Shown piece after piece: positions 29,012-42,416 of a DNA stretch of 64,000 nt. The notes under the pieces were generated by a model that had not been told where the DNA came from, did not search any database, and saw only the letters and a list, made by a program, of their open reading frames with translations. This stretch comes from Amycolatopsis sp. FBCC-B4732 (GTDB lineage: Bacteria; Actinomycetota; Actinomycetes; Mycobacteriales; Pseudonocardiaceae). The position numbers were made by a program, and so were the translations under genes. Position 1 is the stretch's first letter. Each line of letters opens with the position of its first letter. The DNA is taken from the NCBI RefSeq assembly GCF_023008405.1, contig NZ_CP095376.1, forward strand, positions 5,170,001 through 5,234,000. The letters are read 5' to 3'.

Positions 29012-30668
<1,657 letters not shown>

Positions 30669-31285: not shown

Positions 31286-32464
31286 CTATGCCGATAGCTC
31301 CCGTTCCAGCGGTGTCCGGAACCGGGGCACCGTCCGGACCTCGCCGAACCATCCCTCACAGCGCGCCGCCTCCGCCTTGACCGCCGCCGTCACTTCCGTT
31401 CCCACGTCCTCCAGCAACCGGTACGCGATCTCCCCCGACGGGCGCTGGGCCCATCCGCCCACGACCCGGCCCGAGGACCAGATCGTCGGGCCGATGTTGC
31501 CGCTGCGGTCGAACAGTGCCGCTCGGTGCGGGCCCAGGAACCAGTCCCGGTCCTGCCAGCCCATCGGCGTCGGGTCCAGGGCCGGCAAGAACGCCACCCA
31601 CGGTGGCGGCGAAGGCACCGGCTCCAGGTCGTCCGGCAGCGCGATCCCCGTGACTCCCTCGAGGTCCACCTCCACCGGCGACAACCCGGCCAGTGCCTTC
31701 TTCGTCTGCCCCGCCGTCCAGCCCGTCCACCACCTCAGGTCGGTGATCGGGGCCGGGCCGTACGCCTGCAGCCAGCGGCGGGCCAGCTCGGTGCGCGCCT
31801 CCTCCGCGTCCCACGCGCGCAGCCCGGGCGCCCAGGAATCCATCGGGTGCCAGACGTACTGCGTGCTGATCCAGCTCCCCCGCGGCCGCCCGCGCACGAT
31901 GCGGCCGGCCGCTGCCAGGAGGAACAACACGCGGCTCGTCACGTTGCCGATCGCTTCGTACGGCTTGCCCGCCGCCATCAGCAGCTGCTGGCGCAGCCGG
32001 GGCTCGTCCTCGCTCAGCTGCTGCGCCGTCGCCGAGCCACGCGCGCGCAGTGCCTCCTCCACCGAAGCCTCGACCGAAGCCAGCCACTTCCCCGGCTCCG
32101 GCACGTTTTCCGGGTGGCCCTGCTGCCCGAGGTGCTGCTCCAACAATTTCCGCTGCTTGACCTCGATGTCCGCGGTGCACGCGGCCTGCACGAGCGCCGC
32201 CGCCTCGAGATCCGTCACGAACACCGTGCGGCGCATGCCGAGCAGCCGCAGCAGCGTCCGGTCGGTGTACAACGCTTGCTCCACCAGGGAAATCGCCGGG
32301 GACGCGAGCCGCGCGCACGCCGACAGGTGGACGGTCGCCGGGTCGGTCGCGTGCAGGGCGACGATCCCCGTCACCGCCTCCGCCACCGTGGGGGCGGGCG
32401 TGGCGAGGTGGTGGCGGGTCCCCAGGCGGGCCCGGCGCTGTTCGGTGCTGATCTTCGGAGGCAC
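31286..32464 (-). CDS. Winged-helix DNA-binding protein, AlkZ/YcaQ (HTH_42) superfamily
   Basis: 392 aa. The superfamily contains DNA glycosylases that unhook interstrand crosslinks or remove bulky alkyl adducts. Tandem winged-helix architecture is supported by the C-terminal landmark PALDPTPMGWQDRDWFLG and GNIGPTIWSSGRVVGGW. The glycosylase loop in characterised members has a Gln-x-Gln or Gln-x-Asp motif; at the matching place here I read ALHATDPATVHLSA, so the glutamines are absent and His/Asp or Thr/Asp would have to act. Similar HATDP sequences are common in actinobacterial homologues, so it may be a distinct subgroup or a non-enzymatic member. Monocistronic, next to the minisatellite. 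Confidence 0.8.
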   Translation of the reverse strand: MPPKISTEQRRARLGTRHHLATPAPTVAEAVTGIVALHATDPATVHLSACARLASPAISLVEQALYTDRTLLRLLGMRRTVFVTDLEAAALVQAACTADIEVKQRKLLEQHLGQQGHPENVPEPGKWLASVEASVEEALRARGSATAQQLSEDEPRLRQQLLMAAGKPYEAIGNVTSRVLFLLAAAGRIVRGRPRGSWISTQYVWHPMDSWAPGLRAWDAEEARTELARRWLQAYGPAPITDLRWWTGWTAGQTKKALAGLSPVEVDLEGVTGIALPDDLEPVPSPPPWVAFLPALDPTPMGWQDRDWFLGPHRAALFDRSGNIGPTIWSSGRVVGGWAQRPSGEIAYRLLEDVGTEVTAAVKAEAARCEGWFGEVRTVPRFRTPLERELSA

Positions 32465-33181: not shown

Positions 33182-33488
33182 GCACCAGGTCCAGCAACCC
33201 CGGGAAAGCCGCGTCGAATTCGGGACGCCGCAAGCGGTTCAGCCGCCGCGGCCCGTCGTCGCGCTGCTCGATCAGGCCCGCCGCGCGCAGCACCGCGAAG
33301 TGGTGGCTGCGGGTCGCCTTCGCCACCGGCAGGTCGAACGTGCCGCACGCCTTCGTCCAGTCCGGCACGGCCGCCAGCTCGCGCAGGATGCTGCGGCGCA
33401 CCGGATCGGCGACCGCGGCCAGCGCCTCCTGCAGCGAAACCTCCGCCGGGGGCGCGTGCGAGAGCCCCCGGGCCCGGGCCGTGCTCAC
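33162..33488 (-). CDS. ArsR-like winged-helix transcriptional regulator
   Basis: 108 aa from GTG 33488 (VSTARARGLSHAPPAEV...). The HTH is EALAAVADPVRRSILRELA...FDLPVAKATRSHHFAVLRAAGLIEQRDDG, a standard ArsR/SmtB-type fold with recognition helix ATRSHHFAVL. Metal-site cysteines are not in the recognition helix; one Cys (TKACGTF) is present, so metal sensing is unlikely. Its GTG overlaps the LLM oxidoreductase stop (GTGA), so the pair is co-translated and the regulator probably controls its own operon. Confidence 0.88.
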   Translation of the reverse strand: MSTARARGLSHAPPAEVSLQEALAAVADPVRRSILRELAAVPDWTKACGTFDLPVAKATRSHHFAVLRAAGLIEQRDDGPRRLNRLRRPEFDAAFPGLLDLVLSHPGR

Positions 33489-34276
33489 CGGATCGCCTCC
33501 GCCAGGCCCGGCCACCACTCCCGCGGCAGGCCGTCGAGCGGGACGACGACCTGGTCCGCCCCCGCGGCCCGGAACTCCCGCAGCCGCGCCACCACGGCGT
33601 CGAAGTCGCCCCACACGGTGACGCCGTCGACCAGCCGGTCCGACAGCTCCGAGATATCGGTGTCGGAGAACCCCATCCGCCGGAGGTTGGCCGCGTAGCC
33701 CGGCATCCCGGCCAGGAACTTCAGCGACCCGCCCCGGACGGTCTCGCGGACGGCGGCGACGTCGGTCTCCGCCACCACGTTCAGCAGCACCGACAGCTGC
33801 GGGCCCGCGCCGAGGATCTCCCGCGCCGAAGCGACGTAGTCCGTCGTCACCAGGTACGGGTACGCGCCCGAAGCGCGGTCTCGCGCCAGGCCGAGCATCC
33901 GCGGCCCGAGCGCCGAAAGGATCCGCGCGGACGGCGGCACGACGTCCTCGATCTCGTCGAGGTAGTCGTTCAGCGCCGCCAGCGGACGCGCCCCGTGCGC
34001 CCCGCCGAGGCCGACGACGAACCGGCCGGCGGGCAGGTCCGCGTACGCCGAGGCCACCGCGGCGGCCGGGACGCGGTCGACCGACAGGATCCCGCTCGCC
34101 ACCTGGACCCGCGAAGTCCCGCGGACGACCTCGGCGATGCGCGGCAGGTTGTTGCCCTGCCCGCCGGCCAGCCACAGCGTGGCGTAGCCCAGTTCCTCCA
34201 GCTCGGCCGCGGTCGCCACGGCGGCGTCGGTGTCCAGTGCGGTGTGGGTGGCCCCCAGCGGCCCCAGCTTCGTCAT
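33485..34276 (-). CDS. LLM-class, probably F420-dependent oxidoreductase
   Basis: 263 aa from ATG 34276 (MTKLGPLGATHTALDTD...). Luciferase-like TIM barrel; RVQVASGILSVDRVPAAAVA, GRFVVGLGGAHGARPLAALNDYLDEI and the C-terminal VDGVTVWGDFDAVVARLREFRAAGADQVVV are characteristic of actinobacterial F420-type LLM enzymes (the TIGR03620-like group). Substrate not readable. First gene of a two-gene operon with the ArsR-like regulator; it begins 38 bases after the SMC gene stop on the same strand. Confidence 0.88.
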   Translation of the reverse strand: MTKLGPLGATHTALDTDAAVATAAELEELGYATLWLAGGQGNNLPRIAEVVRGTSRVQVASGILSVDRVPAAAVASAYADLPAGRFVVGLGGAHGARPLAALNDYLDEIEDVVPPSARILSALGPRMLGLARDRASGAYPYLVTTDYVASAREILGAGPQLSVLLNVVAETDVAAVRETVRGGSLKFLAGMPGYAANLRRMGFSDTDISELSDRLVDGVTVWGDFDAVVARLREFRAAGADQVVVPLDGLPREWWPGLAEAIR

Positions 34277-34313
34277 GCGCGGGGGAACCACGGGGCGCCG
34301 CGGGATGTTCCCG

Positions 34314-37300
34314 TCACGCGCTCTGTTCGTCGTCGGCGGAATCCTCGGCGGCCTCGGCCGGCCGCGTGAACATCCGCGTCGCCGAGAGCCGCGCGACGCC
34401 GTCCGGGTCGCCCAGGTCGTCCAGGGAAGTCCGGACCGTCGAGTCCACCGACAGGTACTTCCGGCCCGCGCGCAGGTCGGCGTCGTTGCGCAGCCGCACG
34501 ATCAGCGGGAACTCCGACAGCGCGCCCGCGTCGAACAGGCCCGTCGTGTAGATCAGCTGGACGCCCAGCGCTTCGGCCACCGCCCGCTGCAGCTCCAGGA
34601 GGTACCCGGCGGACGCGCGGCCGATCGGGTTGTCCAGGAACAGCACGCCCGAGTGGCGGTTGCGGGCCTTGCCGCGGTTGTTCGCGCGCAACGCCGCCAG
34701 GGTGCAGTACAGAATGATCGCCGCGGTCAGCTGCTGGCCGCCGGAGAAGACGTCTCGGATCTCCGAGACGCGCTGGCGTTCGGTCCGCAGCACCGAGTCC
34801 GGCTTGAGCATGTCGACGCGGAAGCCCTTGGGCGCCGCGGCCCGGACCCCGCGCAGCACCAGCGAAAGCCCGTCGCGCTTGACGTCGCGGCCGTCCGCGG
34901 TCTTGCCGACGGCGGCCTCGTCGACGACCTCGCCGAGCTTCTCGGTGAGCGCGTTGTCCTCCAGTTCGGTGAACCGGATGCGCAGGAACTCCTGCCCGGA
35001 CCAGTCGCCGAGGCCGTCGGGCAGCCGCGAGACGCGCTGGGCCGAGCGCAACGTCCGGAGCGCGCCGTCGACCATGCCCTGCATGCGCGTGATGATGCCG
35101 CCGCGGTGCCGGTCGATCTGCGCGAGGTCGTCGGTGAGCGACCGCAGCCGCGGCCGCAGCGCCTCGGCCCACTCGGCCGCGTGCGCCGGGAGCTGGTCGC
35201 GCTTGACCGAGATGACCTGCTGGCGCACCGGCGTGCTCAGCTTCTCGAACCGCTTCTCGGTCGCGTACTGCGCGAGCTGGTCGGCGGCCGCGCGCACCCG
35301 CCGGTCGCCCGCGTCGGCGGCTTCCTGCGCGTCGGTGAACGTGGCGTTCAGCCGGGTGTGCTGGGCGCGCGCGGTCTCGACGTCGCCGTCGTAGGCGGCC
35401 GCGTCGGTGTCGGTGACCAGGTGCGCCATCGACTCCGCGAGCAGCGAGAAGCCGGACGCCGAGTTCTTCGCCGATTCCAGCGTCGCTTCCGCCGCGGCCC
35501 GGCGTTCCTGCAGCTCCTCCCACTTGCGGGCCGCCGCGGACGCCTCCAGCCCGGCCGCGTCGATCAGCTCCAGGCCGTGCTCGATGTCGCGGGGCTTCTC
35601 CCCCGTGGCGCCGGTCTGCGCCGGCAGCGAGTCCAGCTCCGCGCGCCGCGTCGAGACGAGCCCGATCGCTTCGGTGCGCTCGTCCTCGCACCCGTCGACG
35701 ACGCGGCGGGCGCGTGCCAAGGCGGCCGCGCGGGCCGAGGCGTCGGAGCCGTCGGGCGTCTCCAGCAGTTCCGCCGCGCGTGCCCGGACGGCCGCGTCGA
35801 GCGACTCGACCGCCGAGCCCGCGGCCGCTTCCGCGGATTCGGCCTGCTCCAGCTCGGCCCGCAGGTCGCTGCCGACCTCGACCTTCGCGTACGACTCGGA
35901 CGCCGACAGGTAGGTCCGGCGCAGCGCGTCGACCGGCTCGGACGGCACCGGGCCGTCCGCCGCTTCGGCCGCGCCCGGTACTTCGGCCAGCTCCGCCCGC
36001 GCGGTGGTCGCGGTGCGGCGGTGCCCGTCGGCGGTGCGCTGCTCCTCCCCCGCCTGCTCGCGCAGCCGCGCGGCCTTGCCCGCCGCGTCGGAGGCCTGGA
36101 GGTCGGCGCGCTCGGCGATCTCGGTCGCGCGCTCGACGTCTTCGGTCCACTCCGCGATGCGTGCGCTGCGGGCGCCCAGCTCGCCCAGCCGCCGGGCCCG
36201 TTCCTCCGCCTCGGCCGCGGCCGCCCGCCGCTCGGGGACGCGTTCCCGCAGCGACGCCGCTTTTTCGCTCAGCCGCGCGAATTCCGCGTCGGCCTGCTCC
36301 AGCGCGGTGCGCGCGGTCTCCCGAGCGGACCGGGCCGCCTGCGCCTGCTCGGCCAGCGTCGCGACGGCGCCGGGCGGGTAGTCCTCGCGCCAGGTGGTGA
36401 GCTTCCAGGTCAGCGCGCCGTCCGCGGACAGCTTGGCGGACAGCGCTTCCAGCCGCCGCTGCCGTTCGGTGTGCCGGCGCGCCACGGCTTCGCGCTCGGC
36501 ATCGGCGGCTTCTTCGTCGTACATCGCGGGGTTCGGCGGCACGAGGAACTCGACGCCGGGCGCGACGGGCGCGTCGGCTTGCAACGCGTCCGTGGTGCCG
36601 ACGGCGATCGTCGCGGACGGCAGCAGCCGCCGCTTCGTGAGCACCTCGCGAGCGCGGTCCACGTGCGCGGCGTCGTTGAGCAGGACACCCGAAACCAGCT
36701 GCGGCAGGGTCTCCAGCACCTCGGCGCGGCGCCCGGCGTCCAGTTTGGACAGGTAGCGCCAGCCGGACCACGCCGTGATCCCCGCTTCTTCCAAGGCGTC
36801 GAGGGCGGCCTGGACGTCTTCCGGCGGCGGCAGCAGCCCGCCCGACCCCAGCGCGGACAGCGCGCGCTCGTCGGCGGACTCCTCCATCCGCAGCGCGGTC
36901 TGCTCCTTCTCGACGGCCGCGCTCGCCTCGCGCAGCCGCTCCAGCAGCACCGGCAGGTCGCTTTCGAGGGCGACGTCGTCCGCGCCGAGCAGCTCGACCA
37001 GGCGGCCCTCGGCAGCCAGAGCGTCCGTGCGGCGGTGCGCCCGGTCGAGGTCCTCGGTGGCCCGCTCGAAGCGGTCCTGGGTGGTGCCCGCGAGCTGGTG
37101 GGCCTCGTTGACGGCCCGTTGCGCCGCCTGGAGGTCGGCCGCGACGCGGTCGAGTTCCTGTTCGCGCCGGGTCAGCTCCGCAGTGGCCTGCTCGGCCGCC
37201 GAACGAGCGGTCCGGGAAGCCTCGGCGACGTCGGCGCCCGAGGGCAGCAGCCCGGCGCGGACGGCGTTCTGGACCTCTTCGCGCAGCTCCGTGATCCGCG

Positions 37301-38774
37301 TGGTCAGCCCGCGTGCCTCGGCCCGGCGGGCGGCCGCGAGGTTGGCGGCTTCGTCGCGTTCGGTCTGGGCCTTCTCGGCTTCGGCGCGCAACGCGCCCGC
37401 GTGCGCCTCGGCCTTGTCCGCCTGGCGCTGGGCGTCCTGCGCCAGCGCGTGCAAGCCGCGCGCGAGCGCCGAAGCGGCGTCGTTGCGCGCCCGCAGCGCC
37501 GGGCGCGCCTTCTCTTCCCGGTTGCCGACGAGCTCGCGCAGGTCCTTCGCCTTGCGGGCCGCGTTCAGCTGGTTGAGCACGGTCGCGGTCTCGCGCCAGG
37601 CCTCCGCCTCGGTCTTCGCCGCGGCCAGCTCGGCGTCGGCGCGCTTGCGGACCTCCTGGGCCTCGTCCAGGCGCAGCACGGCGACCAGGCGGCGCAGTTC
37701 CGTGACAGCCGCGGCGAGCCGCCGGTGGTCGCCCTCGGCGAGCTTCTCCGCGGACTTGACCTCGGTGACGTGGTCCTCGAGCCCGGACAGCCGCGCGTTC
37801 TCGAGTTCGTTGCGCGCGACGACGCGCCCGGCCAGCTCGGCCATGGCCGCCTTCGCCGAAGCGGCGATCTTCCGCGACTCCGCGGCGACGCCCTCTTCGG
37901 CGGCCAGCGGGCCCAGCAGCTCCAGCGCGCCCGCGACGAAATCGCGCTCGGACAGCAGATCCCCGCGTTGCGCCAGGTTGTGCGAGTAGGTGGCGACGAC
38001 CTCGGCGAGGTCCTTCGGCTCGTCCTCGGAAACGACCGCGCGCAACAGGAACTCGACGAACGCGTCGTCGGTGCCGAAGGCGAACGCGTCCGCCGCTTCG
38101 CCTTCGCCGGCGTTCATCGCGCGCTGGTAGCGGAACAGCTCGGTGTCGAGGCCGAGGCCGTCCAGGCGGCCGGTCCACTCGTGGTGGCGGCGGGTCCAGG
38201 ACAGTTCCAGCTCGGGCTCGGCCAGCTGCGCGGCGGTGAGCTTGTCGTGGAAGCCGGACATGGTGAGCAGCCGGCCCTCCTGCGTCATCGGCAGGGAATC
38301 GAGCCCCAGCGCCGGCGTCGGGCGGAAGCAGTACCAGGAGTCGACGAGGTTCTCGGAGTCGGCGGACACGACGTGCCCGCGCCATTCGGAGACCTTGCCG
38401 GTGATGATCCGGTGCCCGCTCTCGACGTGCAGCCACTCCAGCACGACGTGCGAAACGTCCTTGGCGGCGACGAACTTCTCGAGCACCTTCGTGCTCGTGG
38501 TGCCGACGACCTGGCGGCGCCCGGGCAGCATCACCGAGAAGATCAGCTTGATGAGGACGGACTTGCCGCCGCCGTTCTCCAGGAACAGCACGCTCGCCGG
38601 CGACGGGCGGCGCAGCTCGGCCGGCCCGGTCGCGTGGATGCCCGCGCTGAACAGCGCGTCCTGCTGCGGCGCGGTGATCTTGGCGCCGACGCCGCTGAAG
38701 TCGAGCACGACGTCCTGGTAGCGGGCACCCGCCGGGCCCACCGAATGCAGGCGGACCCGCGAAAGCTCGTACAT
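34314..38774 (-). CDS. SMC-like ATPase of a JetC/MksB-type condensin complex
   Basis: 1486 aa. N-terminal P-loop NGGGKSVLIKL (residues 67-77; K71, S72) preceded by LFLE, so the first glycine of the usual GxNGxGKS is Leu. Roughly residues 270-1250 are Ala/Glu/Arg/Leu-rich coiled coil with a hinge-like break in the middle. The C-terminal head has signature FSGGQQLTAA (1343-1352) and Walker B GVLFLDNPIG, where Asp1381 is present but the following catalytic Glu is Asn1382. It is the last gene of a three-gene operon with a KITE-like (38785-39585) and a kleisin-like (39585-41060) gene, the order jetA-B-C / mksF-E-B. No jetD/mksG-type TOPRIM nuclease is found within 8 kb on either side. Characterised relatives load on DNA and restrict plasmids; whether this one does is inference. 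Confidence 0.75.
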   Translation of the reverse strand: MYELSRVRLHSVGPAGARYQDVVLDFSGVGAKITAPQQDALFSAGIHATGPAELRRPSPASVLFLENGGGKSVLIKLIFSVMLPGRRQVVGTTSTKVLEKFVAAKDVSHVVLEWLHVESGHRIITGKVSEWRGHVVSADSENLVDSWYCFRPTPALGLDSLPMTQEGRLLTMSGFHDKLTAAQLAEPELELSWTRRHHEWTGRLDGLGLDTELFRYQRAMNAGEGEAADAFAFGTDDAFVEFLLRAVVSEDEPKDLAEVVATYSHNLAQRGDLLSERDFVAGALELLGPLAAEEGVAAESRKIAASAKAAMAELAGRVVARNELENARLSGLEDHVTEVKSAEKLAEGDHRRLAAAVTELRRLVAVLRLDEAQEVRKRADAELAAAKTEAEAWRETATVLNQLNAARKAKDLRELVGNREEKARPALRARNDAASALARGLHALAQDAQRQADKAEAHAGALRAEAEKAQTERDEAANLAAARRAEARGLTTRITELREEVQNAVRAGLLPSGADVAEASRTARSAAEQATAELTRREQELDRVAADLQAAQRAVNEAHQLAGTTQDRFERATEDLDRAHRRTDALAAEGRLVELLGADDVALESDLPVLLERLREASAAVEKEQTALRMEESADERALSALGSGGLLPPPEDVQAALDALEEAGITAWSGWRYLSKLDAGRRAEVLETLPQLVSGVLLNDAAHVDRAREVLTKRRLLPSATIAVGTTDALQADAPVAPGVEFLVPPNPAMYDEEAADAEREAVARRHTERQRRLEALSAKLSADGALTWKLTTWREDYPPGAVATLAEQAQAARSARETARTALEQADAEFARLSEKAASLRERVPERRAAAAEAEERARRLGELGARSARIAEWTEDVERATEIAERADLQASDAAGKAARLREQAGEEQRTADGHRRTATTARAELAEVPGAAEAADGPVPSEPVDALRRTYLSASESYAKVEVGSDLRAELEQAESAEAAAGSAVESLDAAVRARAAELLETPDGSDASARAAALARARRVVDGCEDERTEAIGLVSTRRAELDSLPAQTGATGEKPRDIEHGLELIDAAGLEASAAARKWEELQERRAAAEATLESAKNSASGFSLLAESMAHLVTDTDAAAYDGDVETARAQHTRLNATFTDAQEAADAGDRRVRAAADQLAQYATEKRFEKLSTPVRQQVISVKRDQLPAHAAEWAEALRPRLRSLTDDLAQIDRHRGGIITRMQGMVDGALRTLRSAQRVSRLPDGLGDWSGQEFLRIRFTELEDNALTEKLGEVVDEAAVGKTADGRDVKRDGLSLVLRGVRAAAPKGFRVDMLKPDSVLRTERQRVSEIRDVFSGGQQLTAAIILYCTLAALRANNRGKARNRHSGVLFLDNPIGRASAGYLLELQRAVAEALGVQLIYTTGLFDAGALSEFPLIVRLRNDADLRAGRKYLSVDSTVRTSLDDLGDPDGVARLSATRMFTRPAEAAEDSADDEQSA

Positions 38775-38784
38775 CGATTCCCCT

Positions 38785-39585
38785 CTACAGCGTGTCCGAA
38801 GACGCCGCGCGCAGCGTGCCCCCGGAGTTCGCGACCGCGACGACGTCGAGCGCGAGCAAGTCGTCGAAGGCGGCGTCCGCGGCGAGCTCGCGGACCTGGA
38901 TCTGGTAGCGCGGCGTGGTCCGGTAGGTGCCGCCCTGCTCGTCGCTCACCGGGACCAGGAAGCCCTGGTCGGCGAGGAAGCGCAGGGCGCGGCTGACCAT
39001 GCCGCGGGTGGTGTCGGCGGCCAGGCGCCCGTCCTTGGTGGCGGCCGCGGCCGGGCGGCGGGCGTAGGCGCGCCACGCCTGTTCCAGCTCGGGCGCGTCG
39101 GCCAGCGGGTCGTTGTTGGCCTCGGCCGCCGCGGCGCGTTCGTCGAGCATGCGGGCGGCTTCGCGGACCATCGCGTCGACCTGCTCGACGCTCACGCGGC
39201 CGATGTAGGTGTCGTTGGCGAGGTCGTCGGGACGCGGGTAGCCCAGCGCCGCGGTGGCGAGGTGGATCAGGCCGTGCAGCACCTTCTCGGTCTCGCGGCG
39301 CTCGCGGATCTTGGCCTGGCGGGCGTAGGAGTCCATCTTGATCTCGAAGACGGACTCGTCGGTGGCCGCGAGGACCGCGCCCGCCTGCTGGTTGACCTCC
39401 AGCACCATCAGGCCGAGCCCGGCGGCGACGGCGTGGGTGAGCGCCTTGAACGCGTTGTCCTCGCCGTAGCGCCGCACGAGGTCGCCGTAGACGACGTCAC
39501 GCGCGGGCAGCTGCTTCGGCCGCATGCCGAAGGCGACCAGCCGGGCCGCGGCTTCGGCGTCCACGCTGCTGTGGGACAGCGCCAT
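38785..39585 (-). CDS. KITE-like subunit (JetB/MksE type) of the SMC operon
   Basis: 266 aa from ATG 39585; the first base of the ATG is the last base of the upstream TAA, so coupling is tight. It begins MALSHSSVDAEAAARLVAFG. An acidic middle region with MDSYARQAKIRERRETEKVLHGLIHLA is followed by a winged-helix-like C-terminus RGMVSRALRFLADQGFLVPV...YRTTPRYQIQVREL, as expected for MksE/JetB proteins that bridge kleisin and SMC heads. The assignment rests on size, gene order and the winged helix, not on strong sequence identity. Its stop is 10 bases before the SMC gene. Confidence 0.65.
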   Translation of the reverse strand: MALSHSSVDAEAAARLVAFGMRPKQLPARDVVYGDLVRRYGEDNAFKALTHAVAAGLGLMVLEVNQQAGAVLAATDESVFEIKMDSYARQAKIRERRETEKVLHGLIHLATAALGYPRPDDLANDTYIGRVSVEQVDAMVREAARMLDERAAAAEANNDPLADAPELEQAWRAYARRPAAAATKDGRLAADTTRGMVSRALRFLADQGFLVPVSDEQGGTYRTTPRYQIQVRELAADAAFDDLLALDVVAVANSGGTLRAASSDTL

Positions 39586-41060
39586 TACGCGACTTCCTCT
39601 TCTTCGTCGGCCCGCTCTACGGCGGCGGTGGACAGGAGCAGGTCGGCGCCGCCGAAGTCCGGGTCGTCGAGCAGGGTGCCGTCGTCGATGGCGAGCAGCA
39701 CCGTGCGGTCCCCCTGGCGGCGGGCCGCGCCGACCCCGGGACTGTATGCGTGCACGGCGCGCAGCGCGACCAGGGCGGCGAGCCCGGGCTGGCGGCGACG
39801 GCGGGCCTCTTCGAGCAGCCCGGACAGCCGGCGCGGCACTTCGGGCAGGTCGAGGAGCTCGTCGGCGGCGCGCCAGACGTCGTCGCCGAACTTGTCGGTG
39901 AGGTCGGCGGGCATGAGCTCGGGCTCGGGGACCTCGCCGATCAGCTGATCGCGCTCGGGCGCGGGCCGCAGCAGCAGCGAGACCAGCGACGACAGCGACG
40001 GCACGACCGGCGGGGTGATCCCGGCGACAGCGTGGAAGAAGTGCTCGGCGGGCGCGACGGCGTCGGCCAGCGGCAGGCCGAGGGTGGGCACCAGGAGCTG
40101 GCCGAAGAGGTCGAGGGTGGCGCGCTGCGGCGGGCCGGAGAACTGCTGGCGGTCCTGTTCGGCGCGGAACACCGCGCCCGCGTCGGCGAGGCGGGACTGC
40201 AGGCGCGTGTGCCGGCGGATGCAGTCGCCGACGATGTCGACGAGCTCGGCGGCGCGGCGCTTGCGGTCGAGGTCCTCGGTCTCGTCGCGGGCGGTGGTGA
40301 TGTTCTTGAGGATGGCGTTCTCGGCGCGGAACCGGGCTTCGATGTGGCTCAGCGCGCTGTCGAGCAGCTCCGGGACCTCGCGCTCCCAGTCGACCGACCG
40401 GACGTCGCGGCGGGTCGCGTCGAGCTTCGAGCGCAGGGTCTCGCCGTACTGGACGGTCCGGTAGCGGGCCTGCTCGGCGGCCAGCTTCGCGTCGGCCAGC
40501 CGGCCGCGGTTGATGAGGTTCTCGAGCTTGACCTCGGCGGCGATCTGCGCGGACTCGACGTCGGTGTCGAGGGCGCCGACGAGGACGTTGATGGCCTCGT
40601 CGGTGGCGCGCAGGTAGACCTCGCCGTCGCGGGCGGCCAGCTCGACGAGCAGCTTGAAGTCGAACTGGCGGCGCTGGTAGCCGCCCGGGCCCATCGAGCC
40701 GTAGACGCGCCGGAAGCCGCGCTCGGTGGTGCCGACGTTGATCAGGTTGTCGAGCACCCACTTGGCCACCCGGACGTGCTCCTCGGGCATCCGCGACGGC
40801 GCCTGCTGCGCGATGAAGGGCAGCAGCCGGTCGATGACCTCGTCGTGGCCGGCGCCGGTGTCGAAGTCCATCGCGATGGTGACCTGGTCGATCGTGTGCA
40901 GCGCGATCTCCGCCATCTGGTAGATCGTGGCGTCGGCCCAGTCGAGCTTCGCCTTGCGCGCGTCCAGGTCGTGCAGCGGCGCGGTGCAGGCCAGCGCTTT
41001 GAGCCGACGGGTCAGCCCCTCGTCGGCCAGTCCCATCGCCGCCCGGTCGTCGTCTCGCAC
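39585..41060 (-). CDS. Kleisin-like subunit (JetA/MksF type) of the SMC operon
   Basis: 491 aa if started at GTG 41060 (ATG 41036 would remove 8 residues; no clear ribosome site for either). The N-terminal ~130 residues are a helical domain around IYQMAEIALHTIDQVTIAMD and look like a winged-helix/kleisin N-domain. Then comes a long charged helical part (about 160-290) that can form the neck-binding coiled coil, and a C-terminal domain with PVVPSLSSLVSLLLRPAPE and an acidic end DEEEEVA. No catalytic motif is present. First gene of the operon, divergent from an F420-type oxidoreductase across 61 bases. Confidence 0.62.
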   Translation of the reverse strand: MRDDDRAAMGLADEGLTRRLKALACTAPLHDLDARKAKLDWADATIYQMAEIALHTIDQVTIAMDFDTGAGHDEVIDRLLPFIAQQAPSRMPEEHVRVAKWVLDNLINVGTTERGFRRVYGSMGPGGYQRRQFDFKLLVELAARDGEVYLRATDEAINVLVGALDTDVESAQIAAEVKLENLINRGRLADAKLAAEQARYRTVQYGETLRSKLDATRRDVRSVDWEREVPELLDSALSHIEARFRAENAILKNITTARDETEDLDRKRRAAELVDIVGDCIRRHTRLQSRLADAGAVFRAEQDRQQFSGPPQRATLDLFGQLLVPTLGLPLADAVAPAEHFFHAVAGITPPVVPSLSSLVSLLLRPAPERDQLIGEVPEPELMPADLTDKFGDDVWRAADELLDLPEVPRRLSGLLEEARRRRQPGLAALVALRAVHAYSPGVGAARRQGDRTVLLAIDDGTLLDDPDFGGADLLLSTAAVERADEEEEVA

Positions 41061-41121: not shown

Positions 41122-41559
41122 ATGCGTGAGATGAGCCGTTCAGAGTGGTGGCAGTTCGCTTCCGAGGGGACCCGCACCGGCATGCTCGGCCTGGTCCGTG
41201 CCAGTGGCGCCCCGATCGTGACGCCGATCTGGTTCTTGCTGAACGAGGGCCCCGACGGCGACGAGCTGATCTTCACCACCGGCACCGAGACGCTGAAAGG
41301 CAAGGCCATCGCCCGCGACGGGCGGATTTCCCTCGCCGTCGACGACCAGAAGCCGCCGTATTCGTACGTCCAGATCACCGCCGAGGCGCGGCTCACCCAC
41401 GACTTCGACGACATGCTGACGTGGGCGACGAAGCTGGGTGCCCGGTACATGGGCGCCGAGCGCGCGCAGGAGTACGGCAAGCGCAACGCCGTGCCCGAAG
41501 AATCCCTCGTCCGGGCGAAGATCACCAAGGTGATCGCGCGGGCCGAGATCGCCGGTTGA
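41122..41559 (+). CDS. PPOX-class, probably F420-dependent oxidoreductase
   Basis: 145 aa from ATG 41122. Split beta-barrel flavin/deazaflavin-binding fold: FASEGTRTGMLGLVRASGAPIVTPIWFLLNEG, ELIFTTGTETLKGKAIARDGRISLAVDD and YVQITAEARLTHD are the usual strands, and the C-terminal EESLVRAKITKVIARAEIAG is typical of the TIGR03618-type group. Substrate unknown. It is divergent from the SMC operon, so the two share a 61-base promoter region. Confidence 0.88.
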   Translation: MREMSRSEWWQFASEGTRTGMLGLVRASGAPIVTPIWFLLNEGPDGDELIFTTGTETLKGKAIARDGRISLAVDDQKPPYSYVQITAEARLTHDFDDMLTWATKLGARYMGAERAQEYGKRNAVPEESLVRAKITKVIARAEIAG

Positions 41560-41597: not shown

Positions 41598-42416
41598 ATG
41601 CCTTCAGGGGACAGACGCGACGCCGTCAGGGCGATGGTGCGGGCCGGGCAGCGGGAGCTGGTCGCCGAGCTCGAACGCCTGGACGGCGGTGCGCGCTTCG
41701 GCCGGTCGGACGGGGCGCGGCTGCTGGAGAACGGCGCGGTGTTCGAGCGGGCCTGCGTCGTCGCGGCCGACCGCGGCGAGACCCTCGGGCTGACCGTCGT
41801 GCTCCACCCGCGCAACCCGTACGTCCCGGCGTTCCACGCGCGGTTCCGGTACTGCGAGTACGCGGGCTCGTGGTGGTTCGGCGGCGCGGTCGACCTCATG
41901 CCCTGCTACGGCTTCGCCGAGGACGCGGCGCACTTCCACCGGACGCTCAAGAACTACTGCGACACGCTCGACCCGGCGTTCCACGCGCAGGCGAAACGCA
42001 CCTGCGACGACCTCTTCCGGCTGCCCCACCACGACGAGCCCCGCGGGATCGGCGGCATCGCGTTCGACCACCTGCGGCCCCCAGGCCCGGACGGCTGGCG
42101 CCGCGCGGCCGCGTTCACCGCGGCGGGCATCGCCACCCTCGTCCCGGCCTACCTCCCGATCGTGCGGCGCCGCAAGGACCGCCCGCACGGCGACCGCGAA
42201 CGCCAGTGGCAGCTGCACCGCCGCGGCCGCTACGTGGAGTTCGCCCTGATCCACGACGCGACGGCGGCGGACGCCGAGGCCGTCCTGATGGCGCTGCCCC
42301 CGCTGGCGCGGTGGGAGACGGGCTGCACGCCGGAACCGGGCAGCGCGGAGGCGGAGCTGGCGGCGTTCCTGGTGCCGCGGGACTGGGCGGCCGAGACCAC
42401 GGTCGCCGCGAGCTGA
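41598..42416 (+). CDS. hemF: Oxygen-dependent coproporphyrinogen III oxidase-like protein (HemF)
   Basis: 272 aa from ATG 41598 with a G-rich ribosome site. HemF decarboxylates coproporphyrinogen III to protoporphyrinogen IX using O2. Landmarks: ARLLENGAVFERACV, LHPRNPYVPAFHARFRY (His70, His80), WWFGGAVDLMPCYGF, HFHRTLKNYCD, EPRGIGGIAFD, VPAYLPIVRRRKDRPHGDRE, HRRGRYVEFALIHD, and the tail PPLARWETGCTPEPGSAEAEL. The segment between ERACV and HPRNP is about 20 residues shorter than in E. coli (299 aa) and the usual glycine-rich GGGxSRV is FGRSDGARL. Actinobacteria usually make heme by the coproporphyrin route without HemF, so this gene is atypical. Confidence 0.82.
   Translation: MPSGDRRDAVRAMVRAGQRELVAELERLDGGARFGRSDGARLLENGAVFERACVVAADRGETLGLTVVLHPRNPYVPAFHARFRYCEYAGSWWFGGAVDLMPCYGFAEDAAHFHRTLKNYCDTLDPAFHAQAKRTCDDLFRLPHHDEPRGIGGIAFDHLRPPGPDGWRRAAAFTAAGIATLVPAYLPIVRRRKDRPHGDRERQWQLHRRGRYVEFALIHDATAADAEAVLMALPPLARWETGCTPEPGSAEAELAAFLVPRDWAAETTVAAS

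Follow-up and report, generated by a model that had tools for sequence, protein, structure and literature searches.

What does an operon of the structural maintenance of chromosomes (SMC) type do for its host when it encodes JetA, JetB and JetC of a Wadjet system and no JetD nuclease? The question is raised by the jetABC operon of Amycolatopsis sp. FBCC-B4732, which was analysed within a stretch of 64,000 nucleotides (the window; positions 5170001-5234000 of a single 10.19-Mb contig). The likeliest role, at a probability of roughly 0.55, would be that of a nuclease-free core complex, a Wadjet III relative of SMC type, that serves chromosome organisation or segregation. This role is favoured because the operon is present throughout the genus, at a fixed position and under constraint, and because a gene for ScpA lies elsewhere in the genome, so that Smc-ScpAB is separately present. 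An earlier reading of the same DNA (the original prediction) had listed a chromosome-organising complex among its options; genus universality, synteny and constraint speak for that option and stop short of proving the role.

The operon and its protein family

The operon lies on the minus strand and reads from jetA (39585..41060; 491 amino acids (aa), GTG start, putative kleisin, PADLOC JetA3) through jetB (38785..39585; 266 aa, putative KITE) to jetC (34314..38774; 1486 aa, SMC-type ATPase with a long central region, PADLOC JetC3). At the jetA/jetB junction, which reads ...GCGTAATGGCG, the genes overlap in TAATG, and jetB and jetC are separated by a 10-base gap with GAGGGGAAT ahead of the jetC ATG; the open reading frames (ORFs), sizes and junctions of the three tightly packed genes were confirmed as first described. 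JetA matched the PADLOC JetA3 model PDLC00567 near full length (700.5 bits) and JetC matched the JetC3 model PDLC00588 (DUF3584-type SMC) over residues 1-1483 (2040.4 bits). JetB was named from a weak match to the JetB3 model PDLC00571 (12.5 bits, E 0.018) and from operon order; it is 32% identical to JetB of a JetD-bearing locus (L034), whose own JetB3 match (PDLC00577) had an E of 1.1e-4.

Other collections were searched with the same proteins. Pfam matched none of them even with E allowed to reach 1, NCBIfam gave three matches of 12-15 bits, far under the cut-off, and no significant match of JetA or JetB to solved structures was found by sequence. The PADLOC type I models (JetA1/JetB1; DUF3375, DUF4194) matched none of the window proteins, and hhalign of type III against actinomycete type I returned probabilities of 2.4% for JetA and 0.3% for JetB, with two sequences each on the type I side; these came from two actinomycetes, and the one JetA/JetB pair checked matches solved JetA and JetB. 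Among the Lamassu models LmuA, LmuB and LmuC, the sole match was LmuC to JetB (13.2 bits, E 0.017). By its profile matches, the operon belongs to the JetABC proteins of the Wadjet III family but has no nuclease, and is better not called a Wadjet system. The three genes had originally been likened, in order and sizes, to the kleisin-KITE-SMC sets of Wadjet and of MksBEF/Ept; the first likeness stands, as type III through JetA3 and JetC3, and the second, which is type I, was dropped for want of profile similarity. The kleisin fold of JetA and the KITE fold of JetB are assigned through family and operon order and should be read as putative.

Likeness to Wadjet type III (JetABCD) therefore lies in the near full-length matches of JetA and JetC and in the JetABC order and tight packing, which are shared with the JetD-bearing relatives compared; unlike that system, the window operon has no JetD and, far from being accessory, is a core operon of conserved position in its genus. 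Smc-ScpAB also combines an SMC ATPase with a kleisin and a KITE protein, but JetC reached 15 bits against an SMC_prok_B cut-off of 567, and the three genes of the window stand in one operon.

No gene for JetD, the TOPRIM nuclease, adjoins the window's jetABC. The Pfam model PF09983 (JetD_C) had no match over the whole 10.19-Mb genome, with a positive control in C. glutamicum. Since PF09983 scores JetDs of type III poorly (mostly 22-31 bits), 12 JetDs encoded in related operons were used to build a separate JetD-III profile; its best E against the whole genome was 0.86 (150 of 179 candidates scored). The PADLOC JetD3 models, as a positive control, matched 3/3 JetDs tested (two from divergent loci, one from A. 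rifamycinica). At 17 of 18 divergent loci (the exception being G110) a gene of about 350 aa that abuts or overlaps jetC matched the JetD profile, although some of these JetDs are themselves in the JetD-III profile; the possibility that a JetD of the window's own genome had been overlooked through weak models was rejected on this ground. Decay of JetD in place was likewise rejected: among six-frame ORFs of at least 60 aa at JetD-free loci, the size range that the debris search covered, none fell below E 0.4. The operon had been described from the outset as one without a nuclease gene, and the proposed whole-genome search for JetD/MksG was run with PF09983 and the JetD-III profile; neither turned one up, whether beside the operon or elsewhere on the contig, and almost all of the genus is alike.

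Distribution of the operon and of JetD

A JetA orthologue of 78-98% identity was present in 71/71 same-genus genomes (JetA search, 120 related genomes); further JetA copies at 30-68% are scattered in the 120 genomes, some in the same genus and four in other families of the order. When the locus was compared among relatives, as the original prediction had proposed, 78 of 80 same-genus core loci (79 plus the window) had no JetD, one had it (A. rifamycinica) and one contig ended inside jetC. The gap gene (glyceraldehyde-3-phosphate dehydrogenase, named from its translation; 29012..30022, minus strand, in the window) served as downstream landmark: it was found downstream of jetC on the same strand, 0.9-5.8 kb away, in 72/79 same-genus loci, and in the other seven the stretch or contig ends before it could appear. 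After it, pgk, tpi and secG follow in most of the same-genus loci listed. Because of the 71/71 presence and the fixed gap landmark, the operon is core and vertically placed in Amycolatopsis. One Amycolatopsis genome (L031, L036) has two JetABCD type III operons of 33-35% JetA identity beside its nuclease-free core copy.

Beyond the genus, a survey of the family found JetA-III (E up to 1e-10) in 179/390 genomes and 21/46 genera, and JetD-III in 65/390 genomes (5 candidates scored per genome). The 52 loci compared from other genera comprised 46 without JetD, 5 with JetD and 1 cut, in a biased sample that left out 16 further loci, at least 9 of them with JetD within 8 kb of JetA (G234 and 8 of the genus group g58, which is by inference Pseudonocardia). 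An evenly sampled set of 394 genomes of the class had JetA-III in at least 60 genomes (at least 66 places) and JetD-III in at least 10, with JetD within 8 kb on the same contig at no fewer than 4 of the 66 places; these are lower bounds, as 3 JetA and 5 JetD candidates were scored per genome. One genus group, by inference Streptomyces, held 39 of the 60 JetA-III genomes.

Named species were represented by the best 80 of 543 confirmed loci, which are the best matches to the window and so lean towards its kind: 68 were without JetD, 7 had JetD and 5 were cut before the end of jetC. The JetD-free loci include Prauserella, Haloechinothrix, Sciscionella, Actinophytocola, four Pseudonocardia and Cellulomonas timonensis, and within the same 80 all 25 judgeable loci of Streptomyces/Actinacidiphila were without JetD (28 loci, 3 cut). 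Loci that could not be judged were L054 and L152 and, among the named ones, L181, L226, L251, L254 and L258. In Streptomyces L231 the nuclease-free operon has LamB/YcsF on its upstream side, and there is also a roadblock gene; in L241 the upstream side holds carboxyltransferase and GntR-type genes. Downstream, each of the two operons has a NIT histidine kinase. Both sit in another chromosomal setting than the Amycolatopsis operon. On the favoured reading the nuclease-free complex is a core one, either secondarily or from the start, and is passed on vertically in Amycolatopsis, in some sister genera and probably in Streptomyces.

Among 72,556 plasmid records five have a JetA-III, the fifth as a partial 23% match, and none of 50,697 phage records has one. 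The four strongest plasmid jet operons (L263, L264, L265, L266; Rhodococcus, Streptomyces) all had JetD by profile. Their plasmids are recorded as linear (4/4), and Wadjet does not cut linear DNA (PMC10586767). A linear plasmid with JetABCD could therefore be a safe carrier of a weapon against circular rivals.

Eukaryotic Smc5/6 compacts extrachromosomal DNA and blocks it without a nuclease. The complex of the window might similarly serve in a defence without cutting, by extruding and compacting small circular foreign DNA and blocking its replication or expression. Such a role would employ the same complex that is the shape sensor of Wadjet, with the residues of JetD-bearing complexes kept, would agree with the patchy presence above the genus and has a parallel in the treatment of Smc5/6 beside Wadjet (PMC10586767). 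We consider it rather unlikely, in view of a genus-wide presence, a fixed position and a low ratio of non-synonymous to synonymous substitution (dN/dS) unlike those of patchy defence genes, and of plasmid and most divergent copies that keep JetD, as if defence needs cutting. A chromosome role is preferred here.

The single JetD among the core loci of the genus was analysed separately. In A. rifamycinica DSM 46095 a JetD of 360 aa with the acidic motifs common to other JetDs follows jetC (L072 5682-6764). The 28 bases after its stop are identical to the native jetC 3' end of the nearest tree relative, which is JetD-free, and the end of A. rifamycinica's own jetC is diverged (85% over 110 bases, then unaligned). 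The species is nested among nuclease-free Amycolatopsis in both trees, and of the 40 proteins listed for its JetD (from the 8000 candidates with most words in common) none but itself exceeded 46% identity. Most simply, jetD and a jetC end would have been gained by recombination into a nuclease-free operon; a secondary gain is favoured by the jetC relic and the place in the tree, and the reverse would need many losses. A JetD encoded in the operon of a close relative had been named in the original prediction as an observation that would speak against it; it does occur here, and was not counted as refuting, as the relic and the tree point to secondary gain.

In Tamaricihabitans halophyticus (L138/L245), which has the same glycolytic neighbourhood, JetD is 37% and JetAB 78% identical to A. 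rifamycinica, and in five other pairs at 71-79% JetAB identity JetD stands at 58-71%. Given 37% for JetD against 78% for JetAB, separate acquisition of the two JetDs, or replacement, is probable. The JetD state changed at least 6 times on a 150-locus tree (FastTree) and at least 9 times on 73 chosen loci (quick search), whether by loss or by repeated gain. Among Pseudonocardia-type complexes, JetD is absent in the close relative L158 and present in L179 and L228 (Pseudonocardia ammonioxydans), the last two being 92% identical in JetAB and 67% in JetD. A natural JetC-JetD fusion was considered at L139 (7307-12793, one ORF of 1828 aa) and rejected, since jetC is frameshifted and its head continues in another frame; the frameshift lies before the C-terminal head, with one frame running into jetD, and would be an assembly error or a broken gene.

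These shifts bear on the proposal that the operon is a latent scaffold, a retained half-Wadjet kept mainly for occasional re-arming by a horizontally acquired jetD. The gain in A. rifamycinica, the incongruence with Tamaricihabitans and the presence or absence of JetD among close Pseudonocardia complexes would all be expected from it. We nevertheless hold it to be very improbable: JetD occurs in only 1 of 79 judgeable same-genus loci, and a rare future use would hardly hold dN/dS at 0.03-0.10. The reading as a working complex of the chromosome is followed below.

Constraint and the ATPase head

Median dN/dS in close nuclease-free pairs was 0.097 for JetA, 0.034 for JetB and 0.088 for JetC (23 pairs each); pgk and gap had medians of 0.128 and 0.146 (22 pairs each), and the AlkZ-like gene had 0.216 (20 pairs); the values are Nei-Gojobori estimates on GC-rich genes, and 10 of the 23 pairs share the window. 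By direct pairwise alignment, JetA/JetB/JetC gave 0.147/0.101/0.221 in JetD-bearing pairs (7) and 0.091/0.050/0.102 in nuclease-free pairs (12), so that nuclease-free copies look more constrained, in pairs that are not independent (4 of the 7 JetD-bearing ones share one locus). Columns at least 90% conserved in JetD-bearing copies had an identical residue, again conserved to at least 90%, in nuclease-free copies in 164/168 cases for JetA, 75/78 for JetB and 299/311 for JetC (15 JetD-bearing against 23 nuclease-free copies of the Amycolatopsis clade; four distant JetD-bearing copies and A. rifamycinica omitted). Loss of a JetD-docking surface was rejected, as the conserved positions show no such signal. 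With low dN/dS and retained conserved columns, the nuclease-free complex shows no decay and no visible removal of a docking surface in its sequence.

That the complex keeps almost every position which its JetD-bearing relatives conserve would also be expected if it were a defence sensor with an unlinked effector other than JetD, for example another nuclease elsewhere in the genome. We judge this improbable. The genome had no JetD match, in searches that covered JetD relatives only, and the JetD-III profile detected a JetD anywhere in just 1 of 30 named genomes with JetD-free loci (44-70 candidates scored per genome); nor is a common neighbour apparent, none of ten marker families of the Amycolatopsis neighbourhood being found in the Streptomyces stretches. 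Preference is again given to a complex that acts on the chromosome.

The motifs of an ABC ATPase head were located in JetC, in keeping with the original statement that the SMC head and signature are visible: Walker A GGGKS at residues 68-72 (38559..38573, minus strand), the same or closely similar in aligned loci, and, from motif reading and aligned loci, the ABC signature FSGGQ at residues 1343-1347 (34734..34748, minus strand) and Walker B LDNPIG at residues 1380-1385 (34620..34637, minus strand). Walker A and the signature are intact and the Walker B aspartate is present; the next residue is Asn. SMC ATPases usually have the catalytic Glu at this place. The LDNP Walker B was found in the jetC ORF of 145/150 loci, with and without JetD, and the remaining 5 were 4 incomplete or split ORFs and 1 frameshifted one. 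The Asn was rejected as a mark of nuclease loss, as JetD-bearing copies have it too. Type III JetC may use another residue for hydrolysis, or may hydrolyse slowly.

Proposed role, related complexes and neighbouring genes

In Wadjet, sensing is the part of JetABC, which is powered by ATP and thought to extrude DNA; the cutting is done by JetD (PMC10586767). The JetABC of the window would load onto DNA and extrude loops by ATP hydrolysis as Wadjet does; with no cutter, the outcome would be folding or segregation of DNA, mainly of the chromosome and alongside Smc-ScpAB, and not plasmid cleavage. It seems to retain what JetD requires, so that capture of jetD, as in A. rifamycinica, could restore plasmid cutting. 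A wider proposal, held tentatively and at slightly less than even odds, is that many actinomycetes, Streptomyces among them, have a second housekeeping condensin that has so far gone unrecognised. It would come from the anti-plasmid family Wadjet III, work without a nuclease and be switched in evolution between organiser and cutter by loss or capture of jetD, with A. rifamycinica seen just after capture.

Several points weigh against these proposals. The chromosome role is deduced from conservation, position and constraint, and the type III JetA and JetB, whose folds are assigned by family, do not resemble their type I counterparts in profile comparison. With Asn at the usual place of Glu, ATP hydrolysis by JetC cannot be taken for granted, and the retained positions would also fit a partner that replaces JetD. 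Above the genus the operon is not universal (179/390 genomes of the family, 60/394 of the class) and is therefore dispensable for many actinomycetes, and in g58 (by inference Pseudonocardia) JetD-bearing complexes occur alongside JetD-free ones, a picture closer to the turnover of defence genes. The low G+C content at third codon positions of A. rifamycinica jetD (0.80, against 0.93 for jetC) is weak evidence of recent transfer, because such values are usual for JetD genes (0.75-0.89 in five others). By its title, a paper on M. smegmatis MksB cited in PMC13121528 reportedly describes a condensin that positions the replication machinery. C. glutamicum MksBEFG has no chromosome role (PMC7083940), and the contrast between the two means that the presence of a nuclease need not predict the role.

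Among known complexes, P. aeruginosa MksBEF is one that we take to belong to another sequence family than the window's JetABC. It is alike in having three subunits beside Smc-ScpAB and it acts on the chromosome (PMC7485682, in whose available text the term MksG is absent); in strain PA14 of this species there is, in addition, an mksFEBG operon that includes the nuclease (PMC10123090). C. glutamicum MksBEFG and M. smegmatis EptABCD (Wadjet type I) are alike as actinomycete SMC-kleisin-KITE operons and unlike in that they encode the nuclease MksG/JetD and have an effect on plasmids (PMC10123090, PMC7083940, PMC12287153); C. glutamicum MksBEFG acts on plasmids only, a difference from P. aeruginosa MksBEF to which its authors draw attention (PMC7083940). 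A role on the chromosome and one on plasmids each have a precedent. A survey of defence in actinobacteria reports an enrichment of Wadjet in Actinobacteria and in the direction of the chromosome ends of Streptomyces, and its available text has neither the word Amycolatopsis nor a mention of nuclease-free operons (PMC10482375). Among the open-licence literature matches listed, in the parts of their text available, a nuclease-free Wadjet III operon is not described.

What directs an SMC complex to the host chromosome or to plasmid destruction is an open question. Here one family is a nuclease-free fixed core in some lineages and JetD-bearing and accessory or plasmid-borne in others, with nuclease capture between close complexes, and the question is therefore testable by adding or removing one gene. 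Models of Streptomyces chromosome folding are built on SMC (PMC13121528). If there is indeed a second condensin in Streptomyces and Amycolatopsis, they would need revising, and a new gene would enter into studies of plasmid stability in these antibiotic producers.

The two genes that flank the operon were not taken to be members of the system. The flanks had been named as an LLM oxidoreductase and an F420-type oxidoreductase; the first is an LLM-class (luciferase-like) protein encoded downstream (33485..34291, minus strand; PF00296, family F9, part of the genus loci), and the second, with F420 as its putative cofactor, is a PNPOx-family protein, the divergent upstream neighbour (41122..41559, plus strand; PF01243, family F6). 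Either protein as a substitute for JetD was rejected, as neither is a constant neighbour. An AlkZ-like DNA glycosylase (31286..32464, minus strand; PF06224, 214 bits, family F3) lies between jetC and gap and is a frequent marker, found at many loci. A coproporphyrinogen III oxidase-like protein of 272 aa (41598-42416, plus strand; Pfam model positions 84-295 of 295) is encoded beyond the PNPOx gene, and a gene of this kind adjoins the operon in part of the genus.

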